Source of the DNA: Candidatus Polarisedimenticolia bacterium
Lineage (GTDB): Bacteria > Acidobacteriota > Polarisedimenticolia > Gp22-AA2 > AA152
Direction: 5' to 3'
Assembly (NCBI GenBank): GCA_036004685.1
Contig: DASYRE010000016.1
Location: 1-64,000, forward strand
Length of the DNA stretch: 64,000 nucleotides
Shown: positions 3,410 through 21,178 of the stretch, in pieces
Position numbering within the stretch: position 1 is the first letter of the stretch
How the letters are laid out: the number at the start of each line of letters is the position of its first letter
Position numbers and translations under genes: made by a program
The notes under the pieces: generated by a model
Told to the model about the DNA's origin: nothing
Databases searched by the model: none
The model's input: the letters and a program-made list of their open reading frames with translations, nothing else

Positions 3410-4519
3410 ATGGAAACCGGAAAACCCGATCGACTTCGCGACCGCAGGCCCGCCGCGGCGGCGCCGCGCGGCGCCGGCGCGGCCGCCCTTTGGCGCGACG
3501 GCGCCGGGGCCTGGCGGTACGTCCCGACCCGCTGTCCCGCGATGCACGCGGTCGAGCAGCGGGCGCTGCGCGTCGCCCCGTCGGCCGAGTCGGTTCTGAT
3601 CCTCGGAGAGACCGGCGTCGGCAAGGACCTCCTGGCGCGGCTGATCCACGAGAACTCCGGCCGAAAACATCGGCCCTTCGTCCATTTGAACTGCGCCTCC
3701 CTTTCGGAGAGCCTCCTGGAATCGGAGCTGTTCGGCCACATGCGCGGTTCGTACACGGGGGCCGACGAGAGCCGGGCCGGTCAGTTCGAGACCGCCTCGG
3801 GCGGGACCTTCTTCCTGGACGAGATCGGGGAGATCCCGGCGCGCCTCCAGGCGAAGCTCCTGCACGTGCTGCAGGAAAAGAAGATTTACCGGATCGGGGG
3901 CCGTCAGGCCGTCGACGTGGACGTCCGCGTGATCGCCGCCACGAACCGGGATCTTACGAAGGACATTCGGGCCGGCATCTTCCGCCGGGACCTTTTCTAT
4001 CGCCTGGGGGTCGTCACCCTTCGCGTGCCTCCGCTCCGGGAGCGGCCCGAAGACGTCGAGGATCTCGCGGCCCATTTCCTGTCGCGTTACGGCGCGCTCT
4101 ACAACCGGCCCGATCTGGCGGCGCCGACCCGGGATCTCCTGGACCGGCTGCGCGGCCACGCCTGGCCCGGCAACGTGCGCGAGCTCGAGAACCTGATCAA
4201 GCGCCTGGTCTTGATGGGAGGGACCGAACTGCTCTCGGCCGAGGCGCTCGCGGTGGACGAGGAGGAGCTCTTCGAGCGGCCGGAAACGCCGGGCGCCGAG
4301 TCCTCTCCTCCCCGGTCGCTGCGCGAGGCGGCCCGGCGCGCGGTGAAGCAGGCCGAATGCCGCATGATTCTCGACGCGCTTCGCCGCACCGCATGGAACC
4401 GCAAGCGCGCGGCGCGCGAGCTCGGCGTCAGCTATCGTGCTTTGTTGTACAAGATGAAGGACTACACGCTTCGTCCCGCCGCGACCGCGTCGCCGGCGGA
4501 TCCCTCCGGCGAGATCTAA
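3410..4519 (+). CDS. Sigma-54-dependent transcriptional activator (AAA+ plus Fis-type HTH)
   Basis: Activator that uses ATP hydrolysis to open promoters bound by RNA polymerase-sigma-54. In 369 residues it shows Walker A GETGVGKD (66-73), a GSYTGA loop (113-118) in place of the usual GAFTGA, Walker B GGTFFLDE (131-138), the ATNRDL and R-finger regions, and a Fis-like helix-turn-helix near the C-terminus (NRKRAARELGVSYRALLYKM). No receiver, PAS or complete GAF domain precedes the ATPase; the N-terminus of about 40 residues is low-complexity and basic. The upstream signal may therefore come from a partner. It sits beside the Tad pilus locus, whose first gene has a sigma-54 promoter, so it is the obvious candidate regulator. 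Start is uncertain: the ATG at 3410 has only GAGG nine bases upstream. Confidence 0.88.
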   Translation: METGKPDRLRDRRPAAAAPRGAGAAALWRDGAGAWRYVPTRCPAMHAVEQRALRVAPSAESVLILGETGVGKDLLARLIHENSGRKHRPFVHLNCASLSESLLESELFGHMRGSYTGADESRAGQFETASGGTFFLDEIGEIPARLQAKLLHVLQEKKIYRIGGRQAVDVDVRVIAATNRDLTKDIRAGIFRRDLFYRLGVVTLRVPPLRERPEDVEDLAAHFLSRYGALYNRPDLAAPTRDLLDRLRGHAWPGNVRELENLIKRLVLMGGTELLSAEALAVDEEELFERPETPGAESSPPRSLREAARRAVKQAECRMILDALRRTAWNRKRAARELGVSYRALLYKMKDYTLRPAATASPADPSGEI

Positions 4520-4529
4520 GCTCCGATTC

Positions 4530-5579
4530 TCAGCTCCCGGCGCGCCGCGATTCCGCTTCGCCGGCGGTGGCCAGGACCTTGAGCAGCTCCGCGCCGCTCG
4601 CGCCGTCGACGGGGTGGCTGGCGGAGGAGATCCGGAGCGAGAGTATCACCCCGTTTTCCGCGCCGAGGACTCGTGACTGGACGAGGTTGCGGCGGATTGT
4701 CTGGGCGACGATCGCGGCCTGTCCCGGATTCGCCCCCGGAAGCGCCACGATCAGCTCGCCCTGCGGTCCGGCGGCCACGAGATCGGAAGGGCGGATCGAA
4801 CGGTGCACGAGGCGCGCGGCCCGGAGCAGCGGACGCGAATCTCCGGCCGGATCCGGCGCGAGAGAGCGCCAGTCGAGGCGCAGGAGGCTCAACGGCCGTC
4901 CCGACCAGCCGAGACGCCCGATCTCGTCTTCCAGACGGCAAAGGAACGTTCCGTAGTCGAGCAGGCCGTCGTCCCCCGCCGGCTCGCCCGAAAAGGCGAA
5001 CCGCACCGCCAGAAGCGTTTTCGACAGCGCCTCCTCGAGGACCATGACGTAGATCCAGATCAAGACGGCTTCTTCTTCGTGAAACGGCTCCGGGCGCAGC
5101 AGCTGGATCGCGCCCCAGGGATATCCCCCGGGGACGATGGGCACCGTCAGGCAGGAGGCCGCCCCGAGAAGCCGCAGCTCCGATATCAGCTCGGGTTCCG
5201 CAGGATCGGACACCAGCAGCGGCTTGCGCGCCCGCAGCGCCGCGCCCGCCATCCTCCCCGCCTGTCCCGCCCGCCCCCGTCCTCCCCGGGGAAAGCCCAG
5301 GTGGGCCCGCACCCGGAATTCGCCTTGCGCGTCCGGCGCGACGAGGAGGGCGTGCGAGGCCGAGACGATGGTGCGCGACGTTCTGAGGATGTGCGGGCTC
5401 ACGTGCCGGTCGTGAAGATCGCCGTGCAGCACCATGAGCGAGTGCAGGAGGCTGTTCAGCTCCCGCCATCGCTTCGCCGCCATCGCGGCGTTGATCTCCG
5501 GCGGGCGCTTCAGCTCATAGCCTTCGAAGGGTCGGCCTCCGCGCGCTTCGCCCTGGGGTCCCCGATTGTGTTCCCTCAA
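4530..5579 (-). CDS. GAF-domain protein with degenerate GGDEF-like domain
   Basis: A cytosolic signalling protein of about 349 residues. An N-terminal helical segment leads into a GAF-like domain (about residues 65-190, including LTVPIVPGGYPWGAIQLL). A C-terminal domain follows the GGDEF fold (RPLSLLRLDWRSL, then AARLVHRSIRPSDLVAAGPQGELIVALPG). The catalytic GGDEF is replaced by GPQGE, so cyclic-di-GMP synthesis is not expected. It may be a sensor or scaffold. It converges on the sigma-54 activator and has its own sigma-54-like promoter facing the pilin promoter. The TTG at 5579 is preferred because GGAGG lies six bases before it; an ATG at 5585 abuts GGAGG directly. Confidence 0.7.
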   Translation of the reverse strand: MREHNRGPQGEARGGRPFEGYELKRPPEINAAMAAKRWRELNSLLHSLMVLHGDLHDRHVSPHILRTSRTIVSASHALLVAPDAQGEFRVRAHLGFPRGGRGRAGQAGRMAGAALRARKPLLVSDPAEPELISELRLLGAASCLTVPIVPGGYPWGAIQLLRPEPFHEEEAVLIWIYVMVLEEALSKTLLAVRFAFSGEPAGDDGLLDYGTFLCRLEDEIGRLGWSGRPLSLLRLDWRSLAPDPAGDSRPLLRAARLVHRSIRPSDLVAAGPQGELIVALPGANPGQAAIVAQTIRRNLVQSRVLGAENGVILSLRISSASHPVDGASGAELLKVLATAGEAESRRAGS

Positions 5580-5613
5580 CGGCATCCTCCGATGGGTTCG
5601 ACGCGTGCCCGCT

Positions 5614-5628
5614 GCGATTCCCGTGCCA
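5614..5628 (-). promoter_or_regulatory. Sigma-54-like promoter of the GAF gene
   Basis: On the minus strand it reads TGGCACGGGAATCGC. GG and GC are in the correct -24/-12 spacing, with a single mismatch to TTGC. Transcription would start near 5602, about 20 bases before the start codon, with GGAGG between. Confidence 0.55.
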
Positions 5629-5735
5629 GAATCGGGGGGCGGATCGCCCTTCTGGCGCGTCTTTCTGCCCCTTCCCTCCCTCTATTTCAAGCGCCCATCC
5701 TCCCGCCAGGCATCCCAAGGTGAACCGTTTTTCAT

Positions 5736-5759
5736 GAGTGTGCAAAACGATGCACTCTC
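5736..5759. promoter_or_regulatory. Imperfect palindrome, candidate activator binding site
   Basis: GAGTGTGCA and TGCACTCTC flank a 6-base spacer and pair at 8 of 9 positions (one T-T mismatch). It lies about 145 bases upstream of the leftward sigma-54-like start and about 300 bases upstream of the rightward one. Both distances are workable for an enhancer site bound by the adjacent Fis-type activator. Confidence 0.4.
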
Positions 5760-5980
5760 CCCACGGGAGCCGCCGCCCCGGGGTTCCCGGCCATGCGGCC
5801 GCCCTCAAGCCTCCGTCGATGCGGGGCTTTACGCAACTCATCGCGCCCGGGCGCTCCTTTTCCGATCCTCCTAACCCTCCGCGGCGCTCCGCCGCGCGCC
5901 GCTCGACATGCAAAGTCTTGCGACCCTTCGCTTCGTCGCGATCGACCCGCCGGGACCCGCCCTCCGCGAAAGAACGGTTT

Positions 5981-5993
5981 GTCGTTCAACGAC
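5981..5993. promoter_or_regulatory. Perfect 6-bp-arm palindrome upstream of pilin promoter
   Basis: GTCGTT-C-AACGAC, centred about 64 bases upstream of the predicted pilin transcription start. It could be a proximal operator for the sigma-54 activator or another regulator. Confidence 0.35.
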
Positions 5994-6024
5994 TTGGCGC
6001 CCTGTGAAGAGTGACAAGCGACAC

Positions 6025-6039
6025 TGGCACGCGCCTTGC
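6025..6039 (+). promoter_or_regulatory. Sigma-54 promoter of the Tad pilus operon
   Basis: TGGCAC-N5-TTGC, a full match to the sigma-54 consensus, with GG at 6026-6027 and GC at 6038-6039. Transcription should start near 6051, about 45 bases before the first pilin ATG. Confidence 0.85.
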
Positions 6040-6095
6040 CATAGTCCGCCTCCATCGGGTTGTTTCCATTCAAACCATTTTTCTAAGGAGGGACC

Positions 6096-6263
6096 ATGAA
6101 GGCTATGTTCACCCGTTTCTGGAGGAGCGAGGAGGGCCAGGACTTGGCCGAGTATGCGTTGCTGATCGCGCTCATCGCGCTGGTCGTCATCGCCGCGGTC
6201 ACGTTGCTCGGCACTCAGATCCAGGCCGTGTTCAACAGCATCGCCAACAGCTTGAACCCATAG
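6096..6263 (+). CDS. flp: Flp-type pilin (major Tad pilin)
   Basis: Short type IVb prepilin of 55 residues that should polymerise into the Tad/Flp pilus after leader cleavage by the prepilin peptidase encoded just downstream. A basic leader with aromatic residues (MKAMFTRFWRSEEG) ends in the cleavage signature G|QDLAEY. This is followed by a long hydrophobic helix (ALLIALIALVVIAAVTLLG) and a short polar tail ending NSLNP. A strong AAGGAGGG ribosome site lies four bases before the ATG. It is the first gene after the sigma-54 promoter and is followed by a strong stem-loop, which fits high expression of a major subunit. Confidence 0.93.
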   Translation: MKAMFTRFWRSEEGQDLAEYALLIALIALVVIAAVTLLGTQIQAVFNSIANSLNP

Positions 6264-6378: not shown

Positions 6379-6591
6379 ATGAGCGGACCGCGAATCGCGG
6401 AGCCGAGCCGGAGATTCTGGAGGGAGCTGGTCCGCTCTCTTCTGCGGGATCGGCGGGCCCAGGACCTGGCGGAGTACGGCATGCTGGCAGCGCTCATCGC
6501 TGTGGTCGCCATTGTAGCCATCGCGGCGGTCGGCAGCACGCTCACGGCGCTCTGGTCGACCATCACCTCGGCGTTCGGGGCGCTTCCCTAG
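6379..6591 (+). CDS. Second Flp-type pilin
   Basis: A 70-residue type IVb prepilin. The basic leader is longer than in the first pilin (about 29 residues, rich in Arg) and ends DRRA|QDLAEY. The usual Gly before the cleavage site is replaced by Ala. A hydrophobic helix (GMLAALIAVVAIVAIAAVG) and a short tail ending FGALP follow. Likely a minor or alternative pilin of the same pilus. The ATG at 6379 has only a weak AAGAG upstream; a start further upstream would read through the stem-loop and gives no conserved sequence. Confidence 0.8.
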   Translation: MSGPRIAEPSRRFWRELVRSLLRDRRAQDLAEYGMLAALIAVVAIVAIAAVGSTLTALWSTITSAFGALP

Positions 6592-6623: not shown

Positions 6624-7145
6624 ATGATGCTTCATCTATCCGTCATCCTCCTCTCCGGGGCCGCCTGCGTCACCGATCTGAGGTGGCGCCGCATTCCGAA
6701 TCTGATGGTCCTCTCCGGCCTGTGTCTCGGTTTCGCCCTGAACGCCTGGGCCGGCGGCCTGCCGGGTCTGGGACAGAGTCTTCTCGGCGCCGCGCTGGGA
6801 CTCCTTCTGTTCCTCCCCTTCTTCGCGCTCGGCGGGATGGGGGCCGGAGACGTGAAGCTTCTGGCGGCTCTCGGGGCGCTCCTCGGTCCCCTGGATCTGC
6901 TGCGGGTGGCCCTGGCCGCGGCGCTGGCCGGCGGCCTCCTCGCCCTGGCGGCCGCCGCCTGGCAGCGCCGGCTGGGTGCGACGTTTCGCGCCGTCGGCGG
7001 CCTGCTCTCGTTTTGGATTTCCGGCGGGCTGCGACCCGCCTATGAATGGAGTCTTGATAACCCCGGGACTCTGAAGATTCCTTACGCAGTTCCCGTCGCG
7101 GTAGGCGCCTGGCTGATGGTTCTGGCTCGATGGAGCGCGCCGTGA
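6624..7145 (+). CDS. tadV: Prepilin peptidase, TadV/CpaA type (A24 family)
   Basis: Inner-membrane aspartyl protease that removes the leader from the Flp pilins and TadE-like pseudopilin. The 173-residue protein lacks the methylase domain of PilD, as is usual for TadV. The two catalytic aspartates are visible: D18 in CVTDLRWRRIPN and D76 in the GMGAGD motif. Several membrane helices surround them. GGAGAGGA precedes the ATG. It is part of the pilus operon. Confidence 0.9.
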   Translation: MMLHLSVILLSGAACVTDLRWRRIPNLMVLSGLCLGFALNAWAGGLPGLGQSLLGAALGLLLFLPFFALGGMGAGDVKLLAALGALLGPLDLLRVALAAALAGGLLALAAAAWQRRLGATFRAVGGLLSFWISGGLRPAYEWSLDNPGTLKIPYAVPVAVGAWLMVLARWSAP

Positions 7146-7594
7146 GGACCACCCGGCGCCGCCTCAAAAGCTCCCTGCGACGGGAAGGCTCGGGTCAGAG
7201 TCTGGTCGAGTTCGCCTTGGTCGTCGTGATGTTCCTCCTGCTCGTCGTGGGAATCGTGGAGTTCGGCAGGGCGTGGAATCTATATCAGATTCTCGCCAAC
7301 GCCAGCCGGGAAGGGGCGCGGCTCGCCGCCCTCCCCAACGGCTTCACGAGCGCGGCCGCCGTGAGGACCACCGTTCAGAACTACCTGGCGACCGGCAACG
7401 TCCCGCCGGGAAAGACGACGATCGCCATCGGCGGCGCGGGTGTCGACGGCGGCACGGGCACCCAGGTCTCGGTCACGTTGACCTATCCGTACACGTTCCT
7501 TTTCGTCGGCCCCATCGTCCGTCTGATCAATCCGGGTGCGACGGCCGGGGCCGACGTGACTATCCAGGCGCAAAGCGTGATGCGCAACGAATGA
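7142..7594 (+). CDS. tadE: TadE-like pseudopilin
   Basis: Minor pseudopilin of the Tad machine, about 150 residues. A basic N-terminus runs into the prepilin-like site G|QSLVEFAL. One membrane helix (VVVMFLLLVVGIVEFG) and a periplasmic domain follow (ASREGARLAALP is typical of TadE). The GTG at 7142 overlaps the tadV stop as GTGA and has GGAG upstream; an in-frame ATG at 7130 is the alternative. Confidence 0.85.
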   Translation: MRTTRRRLKSSLRREGSGQSLVEFALVVVMFLLLVVGIVEFGRAWNLYQILANASREGARLAALPNGFTSAAAVRTTVQNYLATGNVPPGKTTIAIGGAGVDGGTGTQVSVTLTYPYTFLFVGPIVRLINPGATAGADVTIQAQSVMRNE

Positions 7595-7649
7595 AAGACC
7601 GTTTTCCGGCCGGGCCCATGAACGTCCCGAGCCCAAGGAGGTTCGCATC

Positions 7650-8483
7650 GTGAGAAGGATTTTCGTGATCAGCATCCTGATTCTGGCGATCGGCTCGGGC
7701 GGCGCCGCCAGCATCCTCACCTACCGGATTCTCAAGAACCGGCAGATGAGCGATCTCGCCGGCGGCCCGAAGCCCGCCCCCACCTTCCCGATGGTGGTGG
7801 CGGCCGTGAAGCTTCCGTATGGAACGGTGCTCCAGGCGGAGCACGTGAAGACGATGGAATGGGCCTCCACCGTGCGCCCTGAGGGATCGTTCTCGGATCC
7901 GCAGGCGGTGCTCGGCCGCGCCATCACCGAGGGGGTCGTTCCCGGCGAGCCCGTTCTCGAGGGACGCCTGGCGCCCCGGGATGCCGGCGGCGGCCTGGCC
8001 AGCGTCATTCCCAAGGGGAAGCGGGCGGTGAGCGTGCGCGTCAACGAGATCATCGGGGTGGCGGGCTTCGTCCTGCCCCGGACGCGGGTGGACGTTCTGG
8101 TGAGCGTCAACCCGGGCGGGGAGAAGGGGCGCAGCGCCAGCAAGATGATCCTCCAGAACGTCGAGGTCCTGGCGGCGGGCCAGAAGATCGAGCAGGACGC
8201 CGAGGGCAAGCCAGAGACGGTGAACGTCATCACGCTCTTGGTCAATCCCGAGGAGGCCGAGAAGCTCACGCTCGCCAGCCACGAAGGCGAGCTGCAGCTG
8301 GCTCTCCGGAACAGCCTCGATCTCGACTCCGTCACGACGGGAGGAGCGAATCTCTCGGCGATGGTCCAGGGGACGCGCCGCGAGCCGGTTCGCATCCGCA
8401 CCGAAGCGCCGGGGCCGCGGCCTCCGGCCGCTCCGACCGTGGAAGTGATCCGGGGCAGCAAGCGGACCACGGAGAGCTTCTGA
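7650..8483 (+). CDS. cpaB: Flp pilus assembly protein CpaB/RcpC
   Basis: Periplasmic, membrane-anchored assembly protein that works with the secretin. The 277 residues start with an N-terminal signal anchor (IFVISILILAIGSGGAAS). A SAF domain (about residues 45-110, PYGTVLQAEHVKTMEW) and the CpaB C-terminal region (RAVSVRVNEIIGVAGFVLPRTRVDVL) follow. AAGGAGGT lies eight bases upstream of the GTG start. The C-terminal 40 residues are Pro/Arg-rich. It lies directly upstream of the secretin gene with one base between. Confidence 0.93.
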   Translation: MRRIFVISILILAIGSGGAASILTYRILKNRQMSDLAGGPKPAPTFPMVVAAVKLPYGTVLQAEHVKTMEWASTVRPEGSFSDPQAVLGRAITEGVVPGEPVLEGRLAPRDAGGGLASVIPKGKRAVSVRVNEIIGVAGFVLPRTRVDVLVSVNPGGEKGRSASKMILQNVEVLAAGQKIEQDAEGKPETVNVITLLVNPEEAEKLTLASHEGELQLALRNSLDLDSVTTGGANLSAMVQGTRREPVRIRTEAPGPRPPAAPTVEVIRGSKRTTESF

Positions 8484-8484
8484 C

Positions 8485-10326
8485 ATGAAAAACATCCAGC
8501 GATTCCCGATGCGTCGATTCCTGGTCGCGATCCTCCTCGCGGCGCTCCTGGCGGACGGGACGACCGGCCCCCGGGCCGCCGCGCCCCCGGCCGCCGCGCT
8601 GCCGAGCCCGCCCAACGTCCTCGCCTCGCTCGCCGCCGAAGGGTCGCGGGACGGGTCCGGCACCCGCGTCACCATGCAGGGGAACCTCCCTCTGAGCTAT
8701 TCGCTGGCCGCCCCCTGGGAGAAGCCCTGGTACCTGACCCTGAACAACGTCGATCCCGGGAAGGTCGGCGGCGAGCTGCCGGTGGGCACGCCGCAGGTCG
8801 ACCGCATCGTCGTCCGCTCGCTTTCCGACGCCGCCGGCGGGCCGGCCACCCGCCTGGAGTTCCAGGGCGGCTCCGCCGACAGCCGCCGCGTGGTCGTGAG
8901 GGGGAACAGCCTGATCGTGGAACTCGCCGGAGGGCAGCCGGCGGCGGTCCAGCCTGCTTCTCCCGCGCCGGTTGCGCCTCCCGTTCCCGTCGCCGAGACG
9001 CGCGGCTACCGTCCGGCCGAGCTGCGCAGCGCGGCGCCGGTTGCCGCCGCGTCACCCGCCCCCGGTCCAATGGATCTGACGGTCGCGGCGGGAAAATCGC
9101 GGACGCTCGATCTGTCCTCCCCCGCCACGCGCGTCTCCGTGACGAACCCGGCCATCGCGGACGCGGTCGTCATTTCGCCCCAGCAGATCCTGATCAACGG
9201 CATCGCGCCGGGAAGCACCAGCCTGCTGGTGTGGACGCGCTCCGGCGAGTCACGGAACTACAACCTGTCGGTCGCCATGGACACCGAGACGCTGTCGGGC
9301 AGGCTGCGTGACATCTTCCCCGATCAGCAGATATCGGTCGCCGCTTCCAAGGACACGCTGGTCCTCTACGGTACGGTCACCAAGCCGGAGATCGGGGAGA
9401 AGGCCGTCAAGGTCGCGGCCGATTATTCCTCGAAGGTGGTGAACAACCTCACCTACCCCGCCAACGGCCGCCGGCAGATCATGCTGAAAGTGATCTTCGC
9501 CGAGGTGAACCGTGAGGCGATGACCGAGCTGTCGGCTTCTCTCGTCCGGGTCGATCCCAACCATCCACGCGGCGACCACGAAGGATTGAGCGGCACCGGA
9601 GTGCCCGGCGCTCTGGGGAACTGGATCAACCGGCCCCAGGGACCCGACTTCCCCTTCGGCGAAGCCATCAACCTTTACGCCTTCAATTTCGCCGACAAGA
9701 TCGGCGCCTTCGTCACGGCGATGAAGACGCGCGGGCTGCTCCAGGTCCTCGCCGAGCCCACGCTGATCACGGCCGACGGACAGAAAGCGTCGTTCCTGGC
9801 GGGAGGCGAGTTCCCCATCCCGGTGGCCCAGGCGGGCGCCGGCTTCACCTCCGTCACCATCATCTTCAAGAAGTTCGGCATCAGCCTCGACTTCACCCCC
9901 GAGATTCGCGAGGACCAGACCATCGTCCTGAAGGTGGAGCCCGAGGTGTCGTCCCTCGACTTCGCCAACTCCGTCGTGCTCGCGGGGTTCTCCATCCCCT
10001 CGCTGCGGGTGCGCCGCGCCAATACCGAGGTGGAGCTCAAGAACGGCCAGAGCTTCGCCATCGCCGGACTCTATTCGGCGGACCTCCAGCAGACGAAGAA
10101 GAAGATTCCGCTCCTCGGGGACATCCCGCTGCTCGGCTACCTGTTCAAGAGCAAGAACCTGAACCGGAACAAGAGCGAGCTGCTGGTGATCGCCACGCCG
10201 GAGCTGGTGGAGCCGTTGCCCGTCGGAGAGAAGCCGGCGCTGCCGAAGTTCGACATGACATTCGACCTCGACAAGACGCCGAAGTCGAAGTCGGGCGCGC
10301 CCAAGTCGCACGCCGAGGTGAAATAG
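8485..10326 (+). CDS. cpaC: Tad pilus secretin CpaC/RcpA with N-terminal AMIN-like domain
   Basis: Outer-membrane pore for the Tad pilus. In 613 residues I see a signal peptide; a region of about residues 48-150 with the AMIN pattern (DGSGTRVTMQGN through RLEFQGGS to NSLIVELAGG); a Pro/Ala-rich linker; the pilus-formation N-domain (about 196-263, KSRTLDLSSPATRVSVTNP); a BON-like domain (about 268-325); and the secretin domain (about 331-590) ending in LLVIATPELVEPL. AMIN domains bind peptidoglycan in PilQ and AmiC but are not usual in CpaC, so this may anchor the secretin to the wall. Confidence 0.92.
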   Translation: MKNIQRFPMRRFLVAILLAALLADGTTGPRAAAPPAAALPSPPNVLASLAAEGSRDGSGTRVTMQGNLPLSYSLAAPWEKPWYLTLNNVDPGKVGGELPVGTPQVDRIVVRSLSDAAGGPATRLEFQGGSADSRRVVVRGNSLIVELAGGQPAAVQPASPAPVAPPVPVAETRGYRPAELRSAAPVAAASPAPGPMDLTVAAGKSRTLDLSSPATRVSVTNPAIADAVVISPQQILINGIAPGSTSLLVWTRSGESRNYNLSVAMDTETLSGRLRDIFPDQQISVAASKDTLVLYGTVTKPEIGEKAVKVAADYSSKVVNNLTYPANGRRQIMLKVIFAEVNREAMTELSASLVRVDPNHPRGDHEGLSGTGVPGALGNWINRPQGPDFPFGEAINLYAFNFADKIGAFVTAMKTRGLLQVLAEPTLITADGQKASFLAGGEFPIPVAQAGAGFTSVTIIFKKFGISLDFTPEIREDQTIVLKVEPEVSSLDFANSVVLAGFSIPSLRVRRANTEVELKNGQSFAIAGLYSADLQQTKKKIPLLGDIPLLGYLFKSKNLNRNKSELLVIATPELVEPLPVGEKPALPKFDMTFDLDKTPKSKSGAPKSHAEVK

Positions 10327-10329
10327 CTC

Positions 10330-11466
10330 ATGAAAACCGAAGGTGCCACGGCCGATCTCCGAGGGGCGCGATGCTCTGCGAACCCCGGAGCCCGCCGGGG
10401 TGAGCGCGGCGCCATCATCATCCTGGCCGCCTTGGTCATGATCGTGGTGCTCGGCGCCGCGGCGCTGGCCATCGACGTGGGGGTGCTCTACACGGCGCGG
10501 ACGCAATGCCAGAACGCCGCCGATTCGGGGGCGCTCGCCTGCGCCGGGTACATGCTGACCCTGAACAACCTGAACGCCGGGGCGGTGAGCAAGCTCAAGA
10601 ACAAGGGAGTGGAGTACGCCAATCTCAACAAGGTGCTCTCGCAGCCCGTCACCATCACTCCCGCGAACGTCACGGTCAATCTGGGCTTGAAGCGCTGCAA
10701 GGTTTGCGTTCCGCGGACCACGGCGAGTGGCAATCCCGTGCCAACCTATTTCGCCCGCGTCTGGAACCGCTACTCCGCCGACGTCTCGGCGTGCGCCACC
10801 GCCGAGATCGCCAACGCCCAGACGGCGAACTGCATCAAGCCGTGGGCCCTTCCCGACGCCTTCGACGACGCCAATGGTAACGGCGCCTTCGACGCCGGTG
10901 AGTACTACGCCCCGGGAGTCACCTCCTACGGCACCGATTACCGTCACAACGGCAACGACGTCGGGGTCTCGATCATCGTGAAGCAATCCAACCCGCAGTC
11001 GGCCATCGCTCCGGGACAGTTCTTCCCCATCGACCTCCCGATCCCGACCTCCCCGGACACCGGGGGCGATCGCTACCGCGACAACATCGTCTCGTGCAAC
11101 ACCACGGGGGTGAACATCGGCGACACCCTCTTCACCGAGAACGGTAACATGATCGGCCCCACCAAGCAGGGCGTCGACGACCTCATCGCGCTCGATCCGA
11201 ACGCCGTCTGGGACTCGGCCGCCGGGCAGATCGCCAACAGCGCCTATGGCGCGGCGGGAAGTCCCCGGATCATCCGGATTCCCTTCTTCGATCCCAACGC
11301 GCCCCCGGTTTCGGGAAAGACCACGGTGATCGTGACGAACATCGCGAGCCTGTTCCTGGAGAGCATCGACGGCAACGGCGTCGTGCACGCCAGGATCATG
11401 CTCGCCACGGGGCAGAGCCCCGGCGGGAGTCCGGGCGGCCTCCAGTTCGTGAGGCTGGTCGAATGA
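10330..11466 (+). CDS. TadG-like pilus protein
   Basis: 378 residues. After a short basic N-terminus comes a TadG-type anchor (RGAIIILAALVMIVVLGAAALAIDVG) followed by the conserved DVGVLYTARTQCQNAADSGALACAG, which is diagnostic for the TadG/TadE-associated family. The long periplasmic domain contains cysteine pairs and a 12-residue EF-hand-like loop, DDANGNGAFDAGE (Asp, Asn, Asn, Gly, Asp and Glu at the ligand positions), so calcium binding is likely. No von Willebrand domain is evident, unlike classic TadG. Its stop overlaps the cpaE start as ATGA. Confidence 0.8.
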   Translation: MKTEGATADLRGARCSANPGARRGERGAIIILAALVMIVVLGAAALAIDVGVLYTARTQCQNAADSGALACAGYMLTLNNLNAGAVSKLKNKGVEYANLNKVLSQPVTITPANVTVNLGLKRCKVCVPRTTASGNPVPTYFARVWNRYSADVSACATAEIANAQTANCIKPWALPDAFDDANGNGAFDAGEYYAPGVTSYGTDYRHNGNDVGVSIIVKQSNPQSAIAPGQFFPIDLPIPTSPDTGGDRYRDNIVSCNTTGVNIGDTLFTENGNMIGPTKQGVDDLIALDPNAVWDSAAGQIANSAYGAAGSPRIIRIPFFDPNAPPVSGKTTVIVTNIASLFLESIDGNGVVHARIMLATGQSPGGSPGGLQFVRLVE

Positions 11467-12707
11467 CCCCCAAGACCCCGTTCAGCGAGCTGCTCGTCCT
11501 TTCGGATCGTCCGGCGTTCCTCGCCGAGATCCGGCAAGCCCTCGGCGGCGCCGAGGGCATCTCCGTGACGCCGGTCGACGGCACGCCGCGGCCCGGCAGC
11601 CTGGCCGCCTGCCTCGCGGCCCTCGATGCGCGCCGCCACGGGATCCTTCTCGTGGACGCCCACGGCGATGCTTCGGCGGCGCTCCTCCTGGCCCAGGCGG
11701 TTTTCGACCACCGGCCCGGCTCCCGGGTATTCCTCGCCGGGGCCGCCGGCGATCCCGACCTGATCCTGCGGGCGCTGCGCGCCGGCGCGGCCGAATATCT
11801 TCCCCTGCCGGTAGAGCGGCGCTCGCTGATGGAGGCGATCCTACGCCTCTGGCGCCGGCTCTCTCCGGAGACGCCGGGCGCGGCGCCCGGGCGAGGGAAG
11901 ATCCTCACCTTCCTGGGAAGCAAAGGGGGCTGCGGGACGACCACGCTCTCCGCCAACCTGGCCGTGACGCTGGCCGCCCGGGGAAGCTCCACCCTGCTCG
12001 TCGACCTCGACTTCACCGGGGGAGACGCCGCAATGTTCCTCAACCTCACTCCCGCTTTCACCGTGGCCGACGTGGTGCAGAACGCCCACCGCCTGGATCG
12101 CGACCTCCTCGGCGGGATGGTGGTGAAGCACGTCTCCGGGGTCGAGATGCTCGCGGCCGGCGAGGACCCGCTCCGATCCCGCACGCTCGAGCCGGCGAGA
12201 ATCGGCCAAGTCCTGGCGTTCTGCCGGGACCATTACGAGCACGTGGTGGTGAACACCCGCGAAACCGACGACCCGATCACCCAGGCCGCGGTGAGCCAGG
12301 CCGACCTGATCCACCTCGTCACGTGCCTCGACTTCCTGGCGCTGCGGCGGGCCCAGTGGTCGCTGCGCCGGCTGGCCCGCTTCGGCATCTCACGGGACGT
12401 CATCCGGCTGGTGGTGAACCGCTACGAGAAGAACCCCTACATCTCGCTCGAAGAGGCGGAGAAGATCCTCGACATCAAGGCCGCCTGGACGGTTCCCCTC
12501 GATCTCAAGACCGCGCAGGAAGCCTTGAACGACGGGATTCCGTTCGTGACCCGCAGCCGCAACGGGATCTTGAAGAGCTTCGAGTCCTACGCCGAGAACC
12601 TCCTCCCGGCCGGCCGGACGGCAAGCCCCCCGGCCGCACCGCGGCGGTCCCGCTGGTTCGGATCGCGGGCCTCGGCCCGCCCGAGCGAAGGAGGAGCCAC
12701 CGCATGA
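11463..12707 (+). CDS. cpaE: Tad pilus localisation ATPase CpaE/TadZ
   Basis: Directs the Tad machine to its place in the cell. The 414 residues comprise an N-terminal receiver-like domain (about 1-130, [17 protein letters not shown] and [15 protein letters not shown]), without a clear phosphorylation pocket, and a MinD/ParA-type ATPase domain. The deviant Walker A is KGGCGTTT, followed by [16 protein letters not shown]. The protein ends in a basic, Pro-rich tail. It sits between the TadG-like gene and cpaF, the usual order. Confidence 0.9.
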
Positions 12708-12726
12708 GCCGATCAGGAGGATTACG

Positions 12727-14055
12727 ATGAAGCCGGCTGTCGAATACTCGGGCGTCCCGACGACCGCGGAGTTCCAGCAGCTCAAGGCCAAGCTGCACCG
12801 CACCGTCCTCGATCGCCTGAACCTCGAGTCGCTGCAGCAAATGGAGCGGGAGGCCGCGGTCTCCGGAATACGCTCCCTGATCACCGACCTGATGAACCAG
12901 GAAATCACGCCGCTGAGCACCGCGGAGCGCCGGCTGATCATCGACGAGATCCTCAACGAGATCTTCGGCCTCGGGCCCCTGGAGCCGCTTCTGGCCGACC
13001 CCGCGATCAACGACATCCTGGTGAACACGCACGATCAGATCTTCGTCGAGCGCAACGGCCGCCTCGAGAGGTCGCCCGTGGGATTCAAGGACGACAACCA
13101 CCTGATGCAGATCATCGATCGGATCGTTTCGCGGGTCGGGCGCCGGATCGACGAGTCGTCGCCGATGGTGGATGCGCGGCTTCACGACGGCTCCCGGATC
13201 AATGCGATCATCCCGCCGCTGTCGATCGACGGCCCGCACCTTTCCATCCGCAAGTTCCGCAAGGACGCGCTCGTCGGCGAGGACCTGATCCGCTACGGAT
13301 CGCTGACCGCCCCGATCCTGGAGCTGATGGCGGGGTGCGTGAAGGCCCGGCTGAACGTGCTGATCTCCGGCGGCACGGGCGCGGGCAAGACCACCCTCCT
13401 GAACGTGCTCTCGTCATTCATTCCGGCTGCGGAGCGGATCGTCACGATCGAGGACTCGGCGGAGCTCCAGCTCCGCCAGGAGCACGTCGTGCGGCTCGAG
13501 ACCCGGCCGCCCAACATCGAAGGGGAGGGCCAGGTCACGCAGCGCCAGCTCGTCATCAACAGCCTGCGGATGCGCCCCGACCGCATTGTCATCGGCGAAG
13601 TCCGGGGCGGCGAGGCGATCGACATGCTCCAGGCGATGAACACGGGGCATGACGGCTCGCTCACGACGATCCACGCCAACACCGCCCGGGACGCCCTGGC
13701 GCGCCTCGAGACGATGGTCGCCATGGCCGGCTTCCAGCTTCCTCCGCGCGCCGTGAAGGAGCAGATCGCCTCCGCCATCGACCTGGTGATCCAGGTGGCG
13801 CGGAATTCCGACGGCACGCGCCGCGTGACGAGCCTGTCGGAAATCATCGGCATGGAGGAAAACGTCATCACGATGCAGGAGATCTTCCTCTTCGAGAAGC
13901 AGGGAATCGACGAGGAAGGGCGGGTCGTCGGACGGTTCCGGCCCACCGGAATCCGTCCCCGTTTCGCCGACCGCCTGCGGATCGCCGGCATCGTCCTGCC
14001 CCTGGAGATGTTCGACGAGGACCTCGCCGATGCCCCTGCGCGGGCCTGGAGATAA
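12727..14055 (+). CDS. cpaF: Tad pilus secretion ATPase CpaF/TadA
   Basis: Hexameric cytoplasmic ATPase that powers pilus polymerisation. The 442 residues show the N-terminal helical domain, then GGTGAGKTT (Walker A), the Asp box region ([10 protein letters not shown]), Walker [13 protein letters not shown], and the His box TIHANT. Length and order are typical. AGGAGG lies seven bases before the ATG. It is followed by the two platform proteins TadB and TadC. Confidence 0.96.
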
Positions 14056-14058
14056 CCG

Positions 14059-15030
14059 ATGCTGGCGGTGATCTTGCTGGTCTTCTTCTCCACCTCGCTG
14101 CTGGTGCTCGGCGCCTCCTTCATGTTCGTCCGCCGTCCCAGCCGGAGCGTGGAGCGCCTGATGATGGCGCGCGCCGGCGTCGCGGCGCTCTCCGCCGCCG
14201 GGGCGGGCGAGGAGGAGCTCAACATCCTCCGCGATCGGTCCCTGAGCGGCATCGCCCCCATGCACCGGACGTTGGCGAAGCTGCGGATTGGAGCCTGGCT
14301 CTCCCGGCTGCTGACGCAGGCGGACGTCAAGATGAAGACGGGGACCCTGGTCCTGTCGATCGGCGTTTTCGCGCTCGTCGGCTACCTCCTCGCGACGCTC
14401 TTCCGGTTCGGCATCCCGCTCGCCGTCCTGGTGGGGGTCCTGACGGGAACCATCCCGGTCCTGATCGTCCTGCGCATTCGCAGCCGCCGGCTCCGGAGGT
14501 TCGAGGCGCAGTTCCCGGACGCGATCGATCTCCTGTCGCGCGCCATCCGCGCCGGGCACGCCTTCAACACCGGAGTCAAAATGATCGCCGACGAGATGCC
14601 CGAGCCGGTGGGCAAGGAATTCCAGCGCGTCTTCGAGGAGCAGAACTACGGGCTCCCGATGAAGTCGGCCCTGCTCAACCTCCTGGAGCGCGTCGAGCTG
14701 CTCGATCTCAGGCTCTTCGTGGTGGCGGTGCTGATCCAGAGGCAATCGGGCGGCAACCTCGCGGAGCTCCTGAGCAAGATCGCCCAGACCATCCGCGAGC
14801 GCTTCCGGATCTTCCGGCAGCTGAAAGTCCACACGGCCCAGGCCAAGATGACGGGCATCATCCTCATGTGCCTGCCTCCGGTGATGGGCGGCGTGACTTT
14901 GGCCTTGAACTACGAGTACATGAAGATCATCTTCCAGGATCCGTGGGGGATCCGGATGCTGATCGGGGCCGCGGTGCTTCAACTCGTGGGCCTGGTCTGG
15001 ATTCGCAAAATCGTCAACATCGAAGTGTGA
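14059..15030 (+). CDS. tadB: Tad inner-membrane platform protein TadB
   Basis: Polytopic inner-membrane protein that couples the CpaF motor to pilin assembly. 323 residues: an N-terminal membrane helix, a pair of central helices ([21 protein letters not shown]), the T2SSF domain ([18 protein letters not shown] through [20 protein letters not shown]), and C-terminal helices. It starts three bases after the cpaF stop with GGAG upstream. Confidence 0.93.
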
Positions 15031-15037
15031 GGGCGAC

Positions 15038-15976
15038 GTGGAACTCATCGTGCTGCTAGGCCTGATTCTGACCTTCATGCTCTCCGCCACCGCGGCTGGG
15101 TATCTCGCGCTGCGGCCGCGCCATGCCGCGGCCCGCCGGCTCCGGGAGCTCCCGTCACCTCAGGCGATGGAAGAGATCGCGGCACCTGTCGCGGCCCCGA
15201 CCGATCCCGAGACCCTTCGCTCGATCCGCAAAAAGGCCTTCAAGGCCCCCCTGTCGATGGCCGACGCCTCGGCGACCCAGAAAGCGCTGTTTCACGCCGG
15301 CTATCGATCCGGGACGGCTCTCGCCACCTACAATCTCTGGAGGGTCGTGACGCTCGCCGGCCTGCCGGCGCTGTTCTGGATTGGCACCCTCCACCTCCCC
15401 ATGACCCCCGCCTACCGTTTCCTGGGGATCGTCCTTCTGGCGCTCGCCGGACTCATCCTGCCGAAGCTGGTTCTGCGCGCCCTGGCCCGCCGCCGGCAGC
15501 ACCGGCTGCGCCTGAGCCTGCCCGATGCTCTCGATCTCCTGGTGGTCTGCGTGGAGGCCGGCATGGGGCTCAACCAGGCGATCGTCAAGGTGGCGGAGGA
15601 GCTGGAGCGCACCCATCCGGAGATCAGCCAGGAGCTGAAGCTCGTGAACCTCGAGATTCGCGCCGGGCGCACCCGGGGGGAGGCGCTGCGCAATCTCGGG
15701 GAGAGGACCGGCGTGGACGACATCATCTCCCTCGCCGCCATGCTGATCCAGACCGACAAGTTCGGCACGAGCATCGCGCGGTCGCTGCGCGTCCATTCCG
15801 ACTCCCTCCGGACCGAGAGAATCCAGAGAGCCGAGGAGGCCGCGGCCAAGACCACGATCAAACTGATTTTTCCGCTGCTCTTCTGCATCTTTCCGGCGCT
15901 GCTCACGGTGATCCTGGGCCCGGCTTTCCTGAACCTGGCCCAGATCTTCAGTAACACGCTGCAGACGACGAAGTAA
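15038..15976 (+). CDS. tadC: Tad inner-membrane platform protein TadC
   Basis: Second platform protein, partner of TadB. 312 residues with an N-terminal helix and a central pair of helices. Its T2SSF domain (LPDALDLLVVCVEAGMGLNQAIVKVAEEL and MLIQTDKFGTSIARSLR) is followed by a C-terminal helix with FPLLFCIFPALLTVILGP. The start is GTG, seven bases after the tadB stop. Confidence 0.93.
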   Translation: MELIVLLGLILTFMLSATAAGYLALRPRHAAARRLRELPSPQAMEEIAAPVAAPTDPETLRSIRKKAFKAPLSMADASATQKALFHAGYRSGTALATYNLWRVVTLAGLPALFWIGTLHLPMTPAYRFLGIVLLALAGLILPKLVLRALARRRQHRLRLSLPDALDLLVVCVEAGMGLNQAIVKVAEELERTHPEISQELKLVNLEIRAGRTRGEALRNLGERTGVDDIISLAAMLIQTDKFGTSIARSLRVHSDSLRTERIQRAEEAAAKTTIKLIFPLLFCIFPALLTVILGPAFLNLAQIFSNTLQTTK

Positions 15977-15990
15977 GGGGGACTCGAGCC

Positions 15991-16350
15991 GTGCGGGCGA
16001 TGAATCGGGACCGGGGGACGGAGCTGGCGCGCCGCGTCGAGAAAGCCGACCGCTTCTGGAAGCGGCTGCGGGGCCTGTCCGGCCGCCGGGAGCTGCCGCG
16101 CGGCGAGGCCCTCTGGATCGTCCCGTGCCGGGGCGTCCATACGCGCGGGATGAGCTTCCCTATCGACGTGCTGTTCCTGGACCGGGACCGCCGGGTGCTC
16201 GGCGTGGAGGAGAATCTCGCCCCGGGGCGGGTCGCTCCCGTCCGCTGGCGGGCGCGCACCGTGCTGGAGCTGCCCGCCGGGACCGTCCGGGGATCCGCCA
16301 CGCGGATTGGGGATCACATCGACTTCGAAACTCGGGAGGAAACGCGATGA
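15991..16350 (+). CDS. DUF192 family protein
   Basis: A 119-residue protein of the DUF192 family (RFWKRLRGLSGR, then VPCRGVHTRGMSFPIDVLFLD and ELPAGTVRGSATRIGDHIDF). The family is often found next to pilus or secretion loci, but its biochemical role is unknown. No signal peptide is visible, while many relatives are exported. It starts with GTG 14 bases after tadC and overlaps the next gene as ATGA, so it belongs to the same transcript. Confidence 0.85.
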   Translation: MRAMNRDRGTELARRVEKADRFWKRLRGLSGRRELPRGEALWIVPCRGVHTRGMSFPIDVLFLDRDRRVLGVEENLAPGRVAPVRWRARTVLELPAGTVRGSATRIGDHIDFETREETR

Positions 16351-17678
16351 GCGGCGCGCCTTTGGAAATCCTGACCGAACCTTGCCCCCTTACCGGCGCC
16401 CCGCGCGCTCCGCGGACCCTGGCGGAGACGGGTCTCTCGGCCTCCTTCCTGTTCGACCTGACGCTGAAGACCCTCTACTACCAGAACGAGATGAAGGGGT
16501 CCGAGATCGCCGATTCCCTGCGGCTTCCGTTCCACGTGGTCGAGGAGACGCTCGAGTCGCTCAAGCGCGAGAAGCTGATCGAGCTCAAGGGCACCGAGGG
16601 GCCGAGCCGGGCCTCCTACCGGTTCCTGATCCTCTCGGCGGGCCGCGACCGGGCGCGCGAAGCGTTGTCGGTGAGCCGCTACGTGGGACCCGCCCCCGTC
16701 TCCCTCGAAGATTATTCCCGCAAGGTGATCGACCAGAACCAGGGGCTGGAGAGAATCCCCACCGAAAGGCTGAGCGAGGCCTTCTCGCACCTCGTCCTCC
16801 CGGAGGGGACGCTCGAGCGCGTCGGGCCGGCGGTGGCCGCGAGAAAATCGGTCTTTCTCTACGGCGCCCCGGGAAACGGCAAGACGGTCCTGGCGGAGGC
16901 CGTGGGACGCGCTCTGGGCGGGTCGATCTTCGTGCCGCACGCGGTGGAGATGGACCAGCAGGTGATCCGGATCTACGACCCCGTCTTTCACGGCGAGGAG
17001 TCCGGCCCCGCCGGCGCCGAGGTGCCGCTCGCGGGAGCGCTCGCCGATCGCCGCTGGGTACGGGCCGGACGCCCCGTCGTCTTCAGCGGCGGCGAGCTGA
17101 CCCTGGAGATGCTCGACCTGATCTTCAACGATCGCGAAGGCTTCTACCAGGCGCCGCTGCAGATGAAAGCCAACGGGGGCGTCTTCATCCTGGACGATTT
17201 CGGCCGGCAGCTCGTGCAGCCGCGAGACCTCCTGAACCGCTGGATCGTTCCCTTGGAGAAGGGGGTGGACTATCTGACGCTCCACACGGGGCGGAAATTC
17301 CCCGTCCCCTTCCGGACGCTGGTCATCTTCGCCACCAACCTCAGGCCGCACGATCTGGTGGACGAGGCGTTCCTGCGCCGCATCCGCTACAAGATCGCCA
17401 TGACCGATCCGACGCGCCGGGAATACCGGGAGATTTTCCGGTTGGAATGCGACCGCCGGGGGATCACCGAAGGGTGGGAGTGGGCCGCCGAATACCTGTT
17501 CACCGAGTACTACGAGAAGCAGGGCTTTCCCCCCCGCGCCTGCCATCCGCGGGACATCCTGGAGAAGATCGTCGACGCCGCCCTGTTCGAAGGGATCACG
17601 CCGTCACTCGACGCCGAAACCCTCGATCGCGTGTGCGGCTCCTATTTCCTCACCGATTCGGCCGATCTGATTCTCTGA
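16347..17678 (+). CDS. AAA+ ATPase with N-terminal winged-helix-like domain, Tad-associated
   Basis: 443 residues. Residues about 30-110 look like a winged helix (YQNEMKGSEIADSLRLPFHVVEETLESLKREKLIELKG). The AAA+ domain has GAPGNGKT at about 172-180, Walker B GGVFILDDFG, and a sensor region (IFATNLRPHDLVDEAFLRRI). A C-terminal helical domain follows. It resembles MoxR-like remodelling ATPases. Its place as the last gene of the pilus operon, overlapping DUF192, suggests a role in pilus function or its control, but this is inference. GGGAGGA precedes the ATG at 16347. Confidence 0.8.
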   Translation: MSGAPLEILTEPCPLTGAPRAPRTLAETGLSASFLFDLTLKTLYYQNEMKGSEIADSLRLPFHVVEETLESLKREKLIELKGTEGPSRASYRFLILSAGRDRAREALSVSRYVGPAPVSLEDYSRKVIDQNQGLERIPTERLSEAFSHLVLPEGTLERVGPAVAARKSVFLYGAPGNGKTVLAEAVGRALGGSIFVPHAVEMDQQVIRIYDPVFHGEESGPAGAEVPLAGALADRRWVRAGRPVVFSGGELTLEMLDLIFNDREGFYQAPLQMKANGGVFILDDFGRQLVQPRDLLNRWIVPLEKGVDYLTLHTGRKFPVPFRTLVIFATNLRPHDLVDEAFLRRIRYKIAMTDPTRREYREIFRLECDRRGITEGWEWAAEYLFTEYYEKQGFPPRACHPRDILEKIVDAALFEGITPSLDAETLDRVCGSYFLTDSADLIL

Positions 17679-17700
17679 GGCGGGCGAAGGGACCCCCGCC
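17679..17700. terminator. Hairpin between convergent genes
   Basis: GGCGGG (17679-17684) pairs with CCCGCC (17695-17700) around 10 bases, directly after the AAA gene stop and just before the end of the convergent dehydrogenase gene. No U-tract, so a weak bidirectional terminator at best. Confidence 0.3.
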
Positions 17701-17704
17701 CGGT

Positions 17705-18724
17705 TCAGGCCAGACGCGGCGGGCCGTGGGGAACCACTGGCAGCGTCAGCATCGTGTGCAGCCCCGGAGGCACCGCGACGATCCGCCGGATGGCGTTGAC
17801 CACGATCGACGCCGTGGCCGAGTCGCCCGGGATTCCTCCAGGAATGATCAGCTTCAGAGGAGGGTCTCCCTCGATCTGGACCCGATCCTCCTCCACCTCG
17901 ACCCCCGCGGCGATCGTGACTTCGAGAGACACCCGCTCGAGATCCTCGGTGAACAGCGCCGCCCGGGTGCGCGTGCCCAGCACCGATCCCACCGGAATCG
18001 TCATGCTCCCCGCCCGCACTTCCCGTTGGGCGATCACCGGCTCGGAGGATTCCGTGACTTGCCGCGCCGCCCATCCGAGGGCCGAGCCCAGAAGGGCGGC
18101 CGACTCGCCCAGCCCCACGTGGCCCATGCTTCCTTGCGCGGCTCCCTTCGTCCGGTAGGCGTCCAGGCTCAGCCCCATGCCGACCTTCAGGCGCAGCGGC
18201 TCGCGACGCCGGGCCACGTCCACCATCCGCGAGGCGCGCACCTTGTCGACCCTCCGGCAGGCGCTCGCCAGCACCGCCGGCACGAGATCGAGGATGAACC
18301 CCGGATTGACACCCGCTCCGACCAGACCGACGCGGTGCTCGCGGGCCAGGGCGTCCAGACGCTGGGCAAGCAGCGCGTGATGCAGCCAAGGGTAGGCCAG
18401 CTCTTCGCACGTCGAGATGCAGTGATATCCGGAGGAGAGGATCTCCTCCAGTTGGGGGAGCACCGAGGGAAGCCGGGATCCGGTCGCGTGCAGGACGACC
18501 CGCGAGGGTTGCGGCATCGGCAGATCCCCTAGGTTCGGAACGATCCGCGGAAGCCGGTGGGCCTGCGGGCCCAGCACCTCCTCGAGGGGGCGCCCCGCGA
18601 CTCCGGGTGCCCGATCGACGCCGCCGATGAGCTCGAGATCCTGGCGCGCGAGCGTCTCCTTCGCCAAGGTCTGGCCGATCGGCCCCAGGCCGAACTGGAT
18701 CACTCGAATCTTCTGGCTGCTCAT
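17705..18724 (-). CDS. NAD(P)-dependent dehydrogenase of the DapB-N / 2,4-diaminopentanoate dehydrogenase type
   Basis: 339 residues. An N-terminal Rossmann fold (VIQFGLGPIG, glycines at 12, 14 and 17) is followed by CISTCEELAYPW and GVNPGFILDLVP, and by a C-terminal domain. This is the pattern of the 2,4-diaminopentanoate dehydrogenase family (DapB-like N-domain), known from ornithine fermentation. No other ornithine-degradation gene is nearby, so the true substrate is open. The ATG at 18724 has GGGAG seven bases upstream, and a promoter lies behind it. Confidence 0.75.
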   Translation of the reverse strand: MSSQKIRVIQFGLGPIGQTLAKETLARQDLELIGGVDRAPGVAGRPLEEVLGPQAHRLPRIVPNLGDLPMPQPSRVVLHATGSRLPSVLPQLEEILSSGYHCISTCEELAYPWLHHALLAQRLDALAREHRVGLVGAGVNPGFILDLVPAVLASACRRVDKVRASRMVDVARRREPLRLKVGMGLSLDAYRTKGAAQGSMGHVGLGESAALLGSALGWAARQVTESSEPVIAQREVRAGSMTIPVGSVLGTRTRAALFTEDLERVSLEVTIAAGVEVEEDRVQIEGDPPLKLIIPGGIPGDSATASIVVNAIRRIVAVPPGLHTMLTLPVVPHGPPRLA

Positions 18725-18775
18725 GGAATCTCCCGAAGAGAGGCCGCTGGCTGCCGAGGGCCGGCCGCGCCGCCC

Positions 18776-18804
18776 ACGATAGGCGCGCCCGCCGCCTCTG
18801 TCAA
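18776..18804 (-). promoter_or_regulatory. Sigma-70-type promoter of the DapB-like gene
   Basis: Minus strand TTGACA (18799-18804), 17-base spacer, TATCGT (18776-18781). Confidence 0.6.
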
Positions 18805-18884
18805 ACCTCGCCGCCTGCCTTCCCTTGCAGAGCCGGCGTGGGCGATGTGCTACTCTCGGCGCTTCACGGAGAGGAGGAGCTTCC

Positions 18885-19892
18885 ATGCGCCGCGCCCCTT
18901 CCACGGCGATCGCCGGCTCGATCACCGACGTCCCGGGCCTCCGCGCCGGCCATGCCCAGGACTTCGCCGCCGTCACTGGCTTCACGGTCGTCCTGTGCGA
19001 CCGCGGGGCGATTTGCGGCGTCGATCTGCGGGGCGGGGCGTCGAGCGTCCGCAACCCGACCGTGGCCCGGCCCGGACACGTGGTGGAGCGGGTTCACGCC
19101 GTCTTCCTGACGGGCGGCAGCGCCTTCGGCCTCGACGCGGCGGCGGGAGTGATGCAATACCTCGAGGAAGAGGGCGTCGGAGAGCCGGTGAGAGCATTCC
19201 GCGTGCCCATCGTGACGGGAGCCGCGCTCTTCGATCTGGCGATCGGCAGCCACCTCCGGCGGCCCGACGCCGCGATGGCCTACGGCGCCTGCCGTGGCGC
19301 GCGCGGGGCGGGCCTTGCGGAAGGCAGCGTGGGAGCTGGAACGGGAGCGACGGTCGGCAAAATCTTTGGCATGTCCCGTGCCATGAAAGGCGGAATCGGC
19401 ACCGCCTCCCGCGCGCTCGGGCGGCTGCGCGTCGGGGCGCTCGCGGTGGTCAACGCCTTCGGCGACGTGGTCGATCCCGCGCTCGGCCGGATCGTGGCGG
19501 GCGCCCGCACCGCCTCGGGCCGCGGCCTGGCCGGCACCGAGAGCCTGCTGCGCTCCGGGGTCCGGCGGCAAGGCTCCCGGATCGAGAGCACGACGCTGGG
19601 GATCGTGGCCACCAACGCCCGTCTGGATCGGCCGGCGGCCTGCCGGCTTGCCGCCGTTTCGCAGGTGGCGCTCGCCCGGACCCTCTTCCCGGCCCACACC
19701 TCCTGGGACGGCGACCTGGTCTACGCCCTTTCCACGGGGACGCTCGAGGCCGATCGATCGGTGGTGGAGGCTCTCGGCGTGGAGACGCTGACGCAGGCCA
19801 TCCTGCGGGGCGCCTCCCGCGCGCGCGGCCTCGGCGGGATCCCGGCGGCTCGCGATCGCCGTCGCCCGCCGGGATGGCTCAGAAAGCCCTGA
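18885..19892 (+). CDS. P1 family peptidase (S58, DmpA/BapA superfamily)
   Basis: 335 residues of an N-terminal-nucleophile hydrolase that matures by self-cleavage. Relatives are aminopeptidases or beta-aminopeptidases. Conserved blocks are ITDVPGLRAGH near the N-terminus, GGSAFGLDAAAGVMQYLEE, SVGAGTGATVGK, and STTLGIVATNARL, whose first Thr is the probable nucleophile by comparison with family members carrying NTTIGV. No export signal is seen. GAGGAGG lies before the ATG at 18885, and a TGC-TACTCT element at 18848-18856 may be its promoter. Its 3' end overlaps the convergent aroC by 14 bases. Confidence 0.85.
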   Translation: MRRAPSTAIAGSITDVPGLRAGHAQDFAAVTGFTVVLCDRGAICGVDLRGGASSVRNPTVARPGHVVERVHAVFLTGGSAFGLDAAAGVMQYLEEEGVGEPVRAFRVPIVTGAALFDLAIGSHLRRPDAAMAYGACRGARGAGLAEGSVGAGTGATVGKIFGMSRAMKGGIGTASRALGRLRVGALAVVNAFGDVVDPALGRIVAGARTASGRGLAGTESLLRSGVRRQGSRIESTTLGIVATNARLDRPAACRLAAVSQVALARTLFPAHTSWDGDLVYALSTGTLEADRSVVEALGVETLTQAILRGASRARGLGGIPAARDRRRPPGWLRKP

Positions 19893-21045: not shown

Positions 21046-21076
21046 GCCGACGGGCCTCCCGATGCAAAGGGCGCCC

Positions 21077-21105
21077 ATTATGATCCGCCAGCCCGGGGGT
21101 GTCAA
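21077..21105 (-). promoter_or_regulatory. Sigma-70 promoter of aroC
   Basis: TTGACA (21100-21105), 17-base spacer, CATAAT (21077-21082) on the minus strand. Confidence 0.7.
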
Positions 21106-21125
21106 AACGGCCCGGGGCGCGCCGG

Positions 21126-21155
21126 TTGCGGGGCCGGGAACCCTTCGAGTATAGT
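21126..21155 (+). promoter_or_regulatory. Promoter of nnr-tsaE
   Basis: TTGCGG (21126-21131), 18-base spacer, TATAGT (21150-21155), giving a short leader before the ATG at 21179. Divergent from the aroC promoter. Confidence 0.5.
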
Positions 21156-21178
21156 TTTTCGCCCGAGGAGATCTCCCC

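Follow-up and report, generated by a model that had tools for sequence, protein, structure and literature searches.

We find that the 510-bp gap between a gene for a GAF/degenerate-GGDEF protein and flp1, the first gene of a Tad pilus locus, holds two predicted divergent sigma-54-type promoters, a proposal supported by the conservation of their GG/GC spacing in 4/4 members of one Acidobacteriota family. The best overall explanation of the arrangement is probably that of a divergent sigma-54 switch run by the activator gene that adjoins it. The window, i.e. the whole 64-kb stretch of DNA analysed here, is contig 16 of the 3.84 Mb draft genome of a soil acidobacterium (G000); the relatives G001, G002 and G003 belong to the same family, and the four genomes effectively represent a single evolutionary origin. 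The features are as follows.

3410-4519, plus strand: sigma-54 activator (bEBP; P0002), with AAA+ (PF00158) and Fis HTH domains
4530-5585, minus strand: GAF + degenerate GGDEF protein (Pfam, alignment and GGDEF-fold model)
5614-5628, minus strand: sigma-54 site facing the GAF gene, TGGCACGGGAATCGC, 1 mismatch, GG and GC cores kept
5739-5756, no strand: distal palindrome TGTGCA-N6-TGCACT, candidate enhancer of the GAF-facing promoter, centre 120.5 bp behind the -24 GG
5908-5923, no strand: proximal degenerate palindrome ATGCAAAGTCTTGCGA, candidate enhancer of the flp-facing promoter, centre 110.5 bp behind the -24 GG
6025-6039, plus strand: sigma-54 site facing flp1, TGGCACGCGCCTTGC, 0 mismatches to TGGCAC-N5-TTGC, its end 56 nt before the flp1 ATG
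6096-6263, plus strand: flp1 pilin (Flp/Fap; PF04964)
6379-6591, plus strand: flp2, a second Flp-like pilin, below the PF04964 cut-off (27 bits), conserved in relatives
6624-7145, plus strand: tadV prepilin peptidase (PF01478)
7130-15976, plus strand: tadE-like, cpaB/rcpC, secretin cpaC/rcpA, tadG-like, tadZ, tadA, tadB and tadC (Pfam; order kept in relatives)

The sequence-only reading had described several elements of this map, i.e. the exact site facing the pilin operon, the one-mismatch site on the opposite strand, the GAF/degenerate-GGDEF gene, the neighbouring activator gene and the Tad locus from 6096 onward, and each was recovered at its position and as described. The Tad assignment follows from the presence of a Flp pilin, TadV, CpaB/RcpC, a secretin, TadZ, TadA, TadB and TadC in a single gene run; Tad pili serve attachment in many bacteria. 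In 3/3 relatives, holB is likewise followed by the activator, the convergent GAF gene, the gap, flp1, flp2 and tadV onward, with the locus divided between contigs in G002 and G003. Downstream of tadC lies a 741-aa frame (16307-18532) with no Pfam or NCBIfam match; a conserved counterpart (37-49% identity) follows the Tad genes of two relatives, and the product is perhaps a Tad-associated surface protein. Two further frames with no Pfam or NCBIfam match, of 474 aa (18557-19981) and 437 aa (20230-21543), sit between the 741-aa frame and a NAD(P)H-hydrate repair gene, and parts of them match one relative. No RNA elements or tRNAs were found in the window.

Within the window, TGGCAC-N5-TTGC is matched exactly at the flp1-facing site alone; genome-wide there are 17 exact matches vs 6 for the reversed control pattern. 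At ≤1 mismatch, the window contains seven matches vs 2.1 expected by chance, the five others all being one-mismatch matches; thus, isolated one-mismatch matches are not rare, and it is this surplus that speaks for reading both sites as chance matches in GC-rich DNA. In dinucleotide shuffles of the window's intergenic region (n=5000), however, an exact flp-facing site arose in 0.04% and a GAF-facing site at ≤1 mismatch in 0.9% of cases (0.04-0.24% and 0.9-2.7% across the four genomes), and both sites together arose in 0/5000 shuffles in each of the four genomes. Together with conservation in 4/4 genomes, these shuffles rule out chance matches, a reading that is effectively refuted and to which we give a negligible probability.

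The sequence-only reading had named a lack of conserved GG/GC spacing in relatives as grounds for abandoning its promoters; what we observed is that the GG and GC cores and the TGGCAC-N5-TTGC spacing are conserved at the orthologous loci in 4/4 genomes. The flp-facing site is exact in all four, with 50-56 nt between its end and the flp1 ATG, and the GAF-facing site is present in all four as a one-mismatch match in the same orientation. The gap itself varies from 430 to 557 bp, i.e. by up to 127 bp, and outside the conserved promoter block most of it is unalignable among relatives. In the gap of G001 (L078, about 13770-13840), GGCACG-type sequence forms partial tandem copies next to the GAF-facing site.

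Only the flp-facing site might be real, with the GAF-facing one a chance or relic match and a housekeeping promoter used instead: the mismatch of the GAF-facing site always falls in the -12 element (TCGC or TGGC, 4/4 genomes), and the site lies at a variable distance from the GAF ATG (28-113 nt). We regard this as quite improbable because the site recurs in 4/4 genomes at shuffle frequencies of 0.9-2.7% each and is backed in every one of them by a palindrome at a distance of 120-128 bp.

The adjoining activator matches PF00158 with 222 bits and the Fis HTH domain (PF02954) with 52.6 bits. Its Walker A motif (GETGVGKD), Walker B motif and G[SA]YTGA loop are conserved among the orthologs, the L1 loop reading GSYTGA in the window and GAYTGA in G001; the protein thus has the AAA+ domain with Walker A/B, the GAFTGA-type loop and the HTH of a sigma-54 enhancer-binding protein. 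No REC, PAS, GAF or other sensory domain was found in it by Pfam, and about 40 residues precede the AAA+ domain. Lacking a receiver domain, it is not of the response-regulator type (DVU2114/PilR), and it scores below the cut-offs for PspF equivalogs (263 vs 443.55 bits for TIGR02974 and 224.7 vs 529 for NF008622). Orthologs with 65-68% identity are present throughout the family (4/4 genomes) and in 0/56 other genomes at E ≤ 1e-100. In G002 (L081, about 295-400), the HTH end of the activator gene has shifted frame close to the end of the contig, perhaps through an assembly error or else because the gene is broken. The genome of the window encodes one match to the RpoN DNA-binding domain (PF04552, E 1.1e-62).

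An unbiased dyad search with all 5-base arms and spacers of 0-14 across the gaps of the four genomes returned GTGCA-N6-TGCAC as the best common palindrome, at 39/40 positions vs a maximum of 38 in 300 shuffles. The centre of the distal copy lies 120.5/127.5/124.5/124.5 bp behind the GAF-facing -24 element in the four genomes, and that of the proximal copy 110.5/117.5/119.5/120.5 bp behind the flp-facing one, so that the spacing between palindrome and promoter is kept despite the differences in gap length. The proximal copy has 3 mismatches in the window's genome and 1-2 in the relatives, where it lies at 117-121 bp. Genome-wide, the exact palindrome occurs twice in G000, once in G003 (at the locus) and three times in G001 (one at the locus); G002 has two exact copies, none in the gap, where the copies have one mismatch only. 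Such near-uniqueness is consistent with a narrow regulon under a dedicated activator, and the palindrome is likely to be the activator's enhancer, for which it is our candidate.

Two broader roles for the palindrome were considered and rejected. A broad activator regulon finds no place, as the off-locus exact palindromes in the four genomes have no sigma-54 site at ≤1 mismatch within 500 bp, the one exception being a copy in G001 that has a 1-mismatch site at +419. None of the 16 remaining exact sigma-54 sites in the window's genome has the palindrome nearby. Nor is the palindrome a common element of sigma-54-controlled flp genes, since other families show just one 1-mismatch copy nearby.

We propose that the gap would serve as a common control region with one promoter for the Tad operon from flp1 and the other for the GAF gene. 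The sensorless activator would bind the GTGCA-N6-TGCAC palindrome that lies behind each promoter at a distance of about 110-128 bp and, once bound, would loop onto RpoN-RNA polymerase and open both promoters. That the local activator binds the palindromes and drives both promoters is, judged from sequence, likely, and we hold this part with good confidence.

Flp pilins were found in 78/396 sampled genomes of the phylum. Among 90 flp upstream regions, a sigma-54 site pointing toward flp was present as an exact match in 12 and at ≤1 mismatch in 24, the reversed pattern giving 0 and 0. Outside the family of the locus, 19/83 flp regions have a site toward flp and 2 have one pointing away (shuffle mean 0.82). 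Regions from other Acidobacteriota families with such sites include L201-L211, L137 and L138. In 14 Tad stretches from other families, most of which carry flp-pointing sites, no activator or GAF relative was found beside flp within the 9-16 kb covered, a reach that is sometimes short. Thus, the promoter type has a wide distribution, and the module of activator and GAF gene appears to be family-specific. The sites suggest that control of Tad pili by sigma-54 has arisen as a recurring solution and not as a peculiarity of Desulfovibrio. In L206, one of these other-family Tad loci, the cpaB frame is preceded, at about 46 bp, by an exact site (11545-11559, minus strand), which suggests that this split locus has a second, internal sigma-54 promoter.

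The finding of Tad loci with sigma-54 sites and no activator in the stretches examined, together with about 26 strong matches to Sigma54_activat domains in the window's genome, would also fit a pilin promoter that depends on sigma-54 and is activated by a distant enhancer-binding protein, the local activator controlling something else. The strict co-occurrence of the local activator with the locus and the nearly locus-specific palindrome point to a dedicated local activator instead, making a distant one improbable.

For the GAF/degenerate-GGDEF protein, a search of 60 related genomes identified close relatives in only three, all of the same family. Its N-terminal half is a GAF domain (PF01590, 44.7 bits). 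The Pfam match to GGDEF in the C-terminal half is weak, and a structure model gives that half a GGDEF fold (residues 198-349, Z about 17). The model is weak overall (mean pLDDT 52.9), with the C-terminal GGDEF half alone usable, and PelD was not among the matches listed by its fold comparison, an absence that carries no weight for or against a likeness. The catalytic motif is lost in 4/4 proteins (PQGEL in the window; QAGDL, PTGDL and AAGDL in the relatives). By contrast with the lost motif, an RxxD I-site (R265-D268 in the window; RPSD/RPVD/RPAD/RGVD in the four genomes) is kept exactly 5 residues upstream of it in 4/4 genomes, and the downstream arginines R298 and R299 are invariant in the three full-length proteins. 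The protein thus combines GAF with degenerate GGDEF, and RxxD with a downstream Arg, as PelD-like receptors do. RxxD by itself is common in GGDEF domains. Proteins with an intact GG[DE]EF motif are encoded in the window's genome, implying that c-di-GMP is made; given this and an RxxD in a degenerate GGDEF domain as in c-di-GMP-binding PelD, it is plausible that the protein is a c-di-GMP receptor, for which it is a candidate.

How such a receptor would act can be read in two ways. It could be an effector co-regulated with the Tad machine and working on it at the post-translational level, in the way that PelD works on Pel export: GAF plus degenerate GGDEF with RxxD is the layout of PelD, which works post-translationally (PMC7112168), and the GAF gene and the pilus are under the same predicted promoter type. 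The other-family Tad loci examined are without the GAF protein, which here is always found with the activator, an association that weighs weakly, coming from one lineage; we consider an effector role possible and rather unlikely. The alternative is that the protein would supply, in trans, the sensor that the activator is missing, the signal probably being either a ligand of the GAF domain or c-di-GMP at RxxD, with feedback because the GAF gene is itself under the same control. We give this gating role slightly less than an even chance. The full scheme, in which a sensorless activator would be gated in trans by a catalytically dead c-di-GMP receptor whose own gene lies under the same enhancer region, forming a closed feedback switch for Tad, is more tentative and on balance doubtful. 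Gating of the activator by the GAF/degenerate-GGDEF protein, if real, would be a further route from c-di-GMP to sigma-54 transcription. The conserved promoters and palindrome make up an explicit, testable map of regulatory sites.

In comparison with known systems, the activator resembles PspF and other trans-controlled sensorless activators, which consist of AAA+ plus HTH with no N-terminal sensor. As in PspF-PspA, a sensorless activator adjoins a sigma-54-controlled gene that could feed back; the partner there is PspA and here a GAF/degenerate-GGDEF protein. PilS/PilR, which with RpoN controls type IVa pilA (as cited in PMC3333781), shares with the locus a sigma-54 promoter of a major pilin and an NtrC-family activator; it differs in serving type IVa pili through a histidine kinase/response regulator pair, in contrast to Tad and a sensorless activator here. 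PelD, which binds c-di-GMP via RxxD in a degenerate GGDEF domain and acts post-translationally (PMC7112168), shares the GAF plus degenerate GGDEF layout with RxxD kept and a setting in adhesion and biofilms; PelD is tied to Pel polysaccharide production, whereas the GAF gene here adjoins a transcription activator and a Tad pilus. In Pectobacterium, the authors were unable to confirm that the sigma-54 activator VasH regulates flp/tad (PMC3767616), and on Tad pilus control in Acidobacteriota little appears to be published, one full-text search of an open-access library having returned nothing on the subject.

The closest precedent is DVU2114 of Desulfovibrio vulgaris, a sigma-54-dependent response regulator that targets the Tad/Cpa-type pilin genes DORF39640-DVU2116 and whose motif is conserved in a few relatives (PMC3333781, PMC4641369). 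Sigma-54 control of Tad is thus not new in itself, and the suggestion in the sequence-only reading that it is unusual is not supported, given this precedent (PMC3333781) and the flp sites common in other Acidobacteriota families. Both systems have a sigma-54-dependent activator with Tad-like pilin targets; however, DVU2114 belongs to the two-component response regulators and carries GAFTGA, whereas the activator here lacks a receiver domain and carries GSYTGA, and here a separate GAF/degenerate-GGDEF gene shares a common divergent sigma-54 control region. Altogether, the compact layout of a local activator with a sensor-like partner looks like a new variant of sigma-54-controlled Tad.
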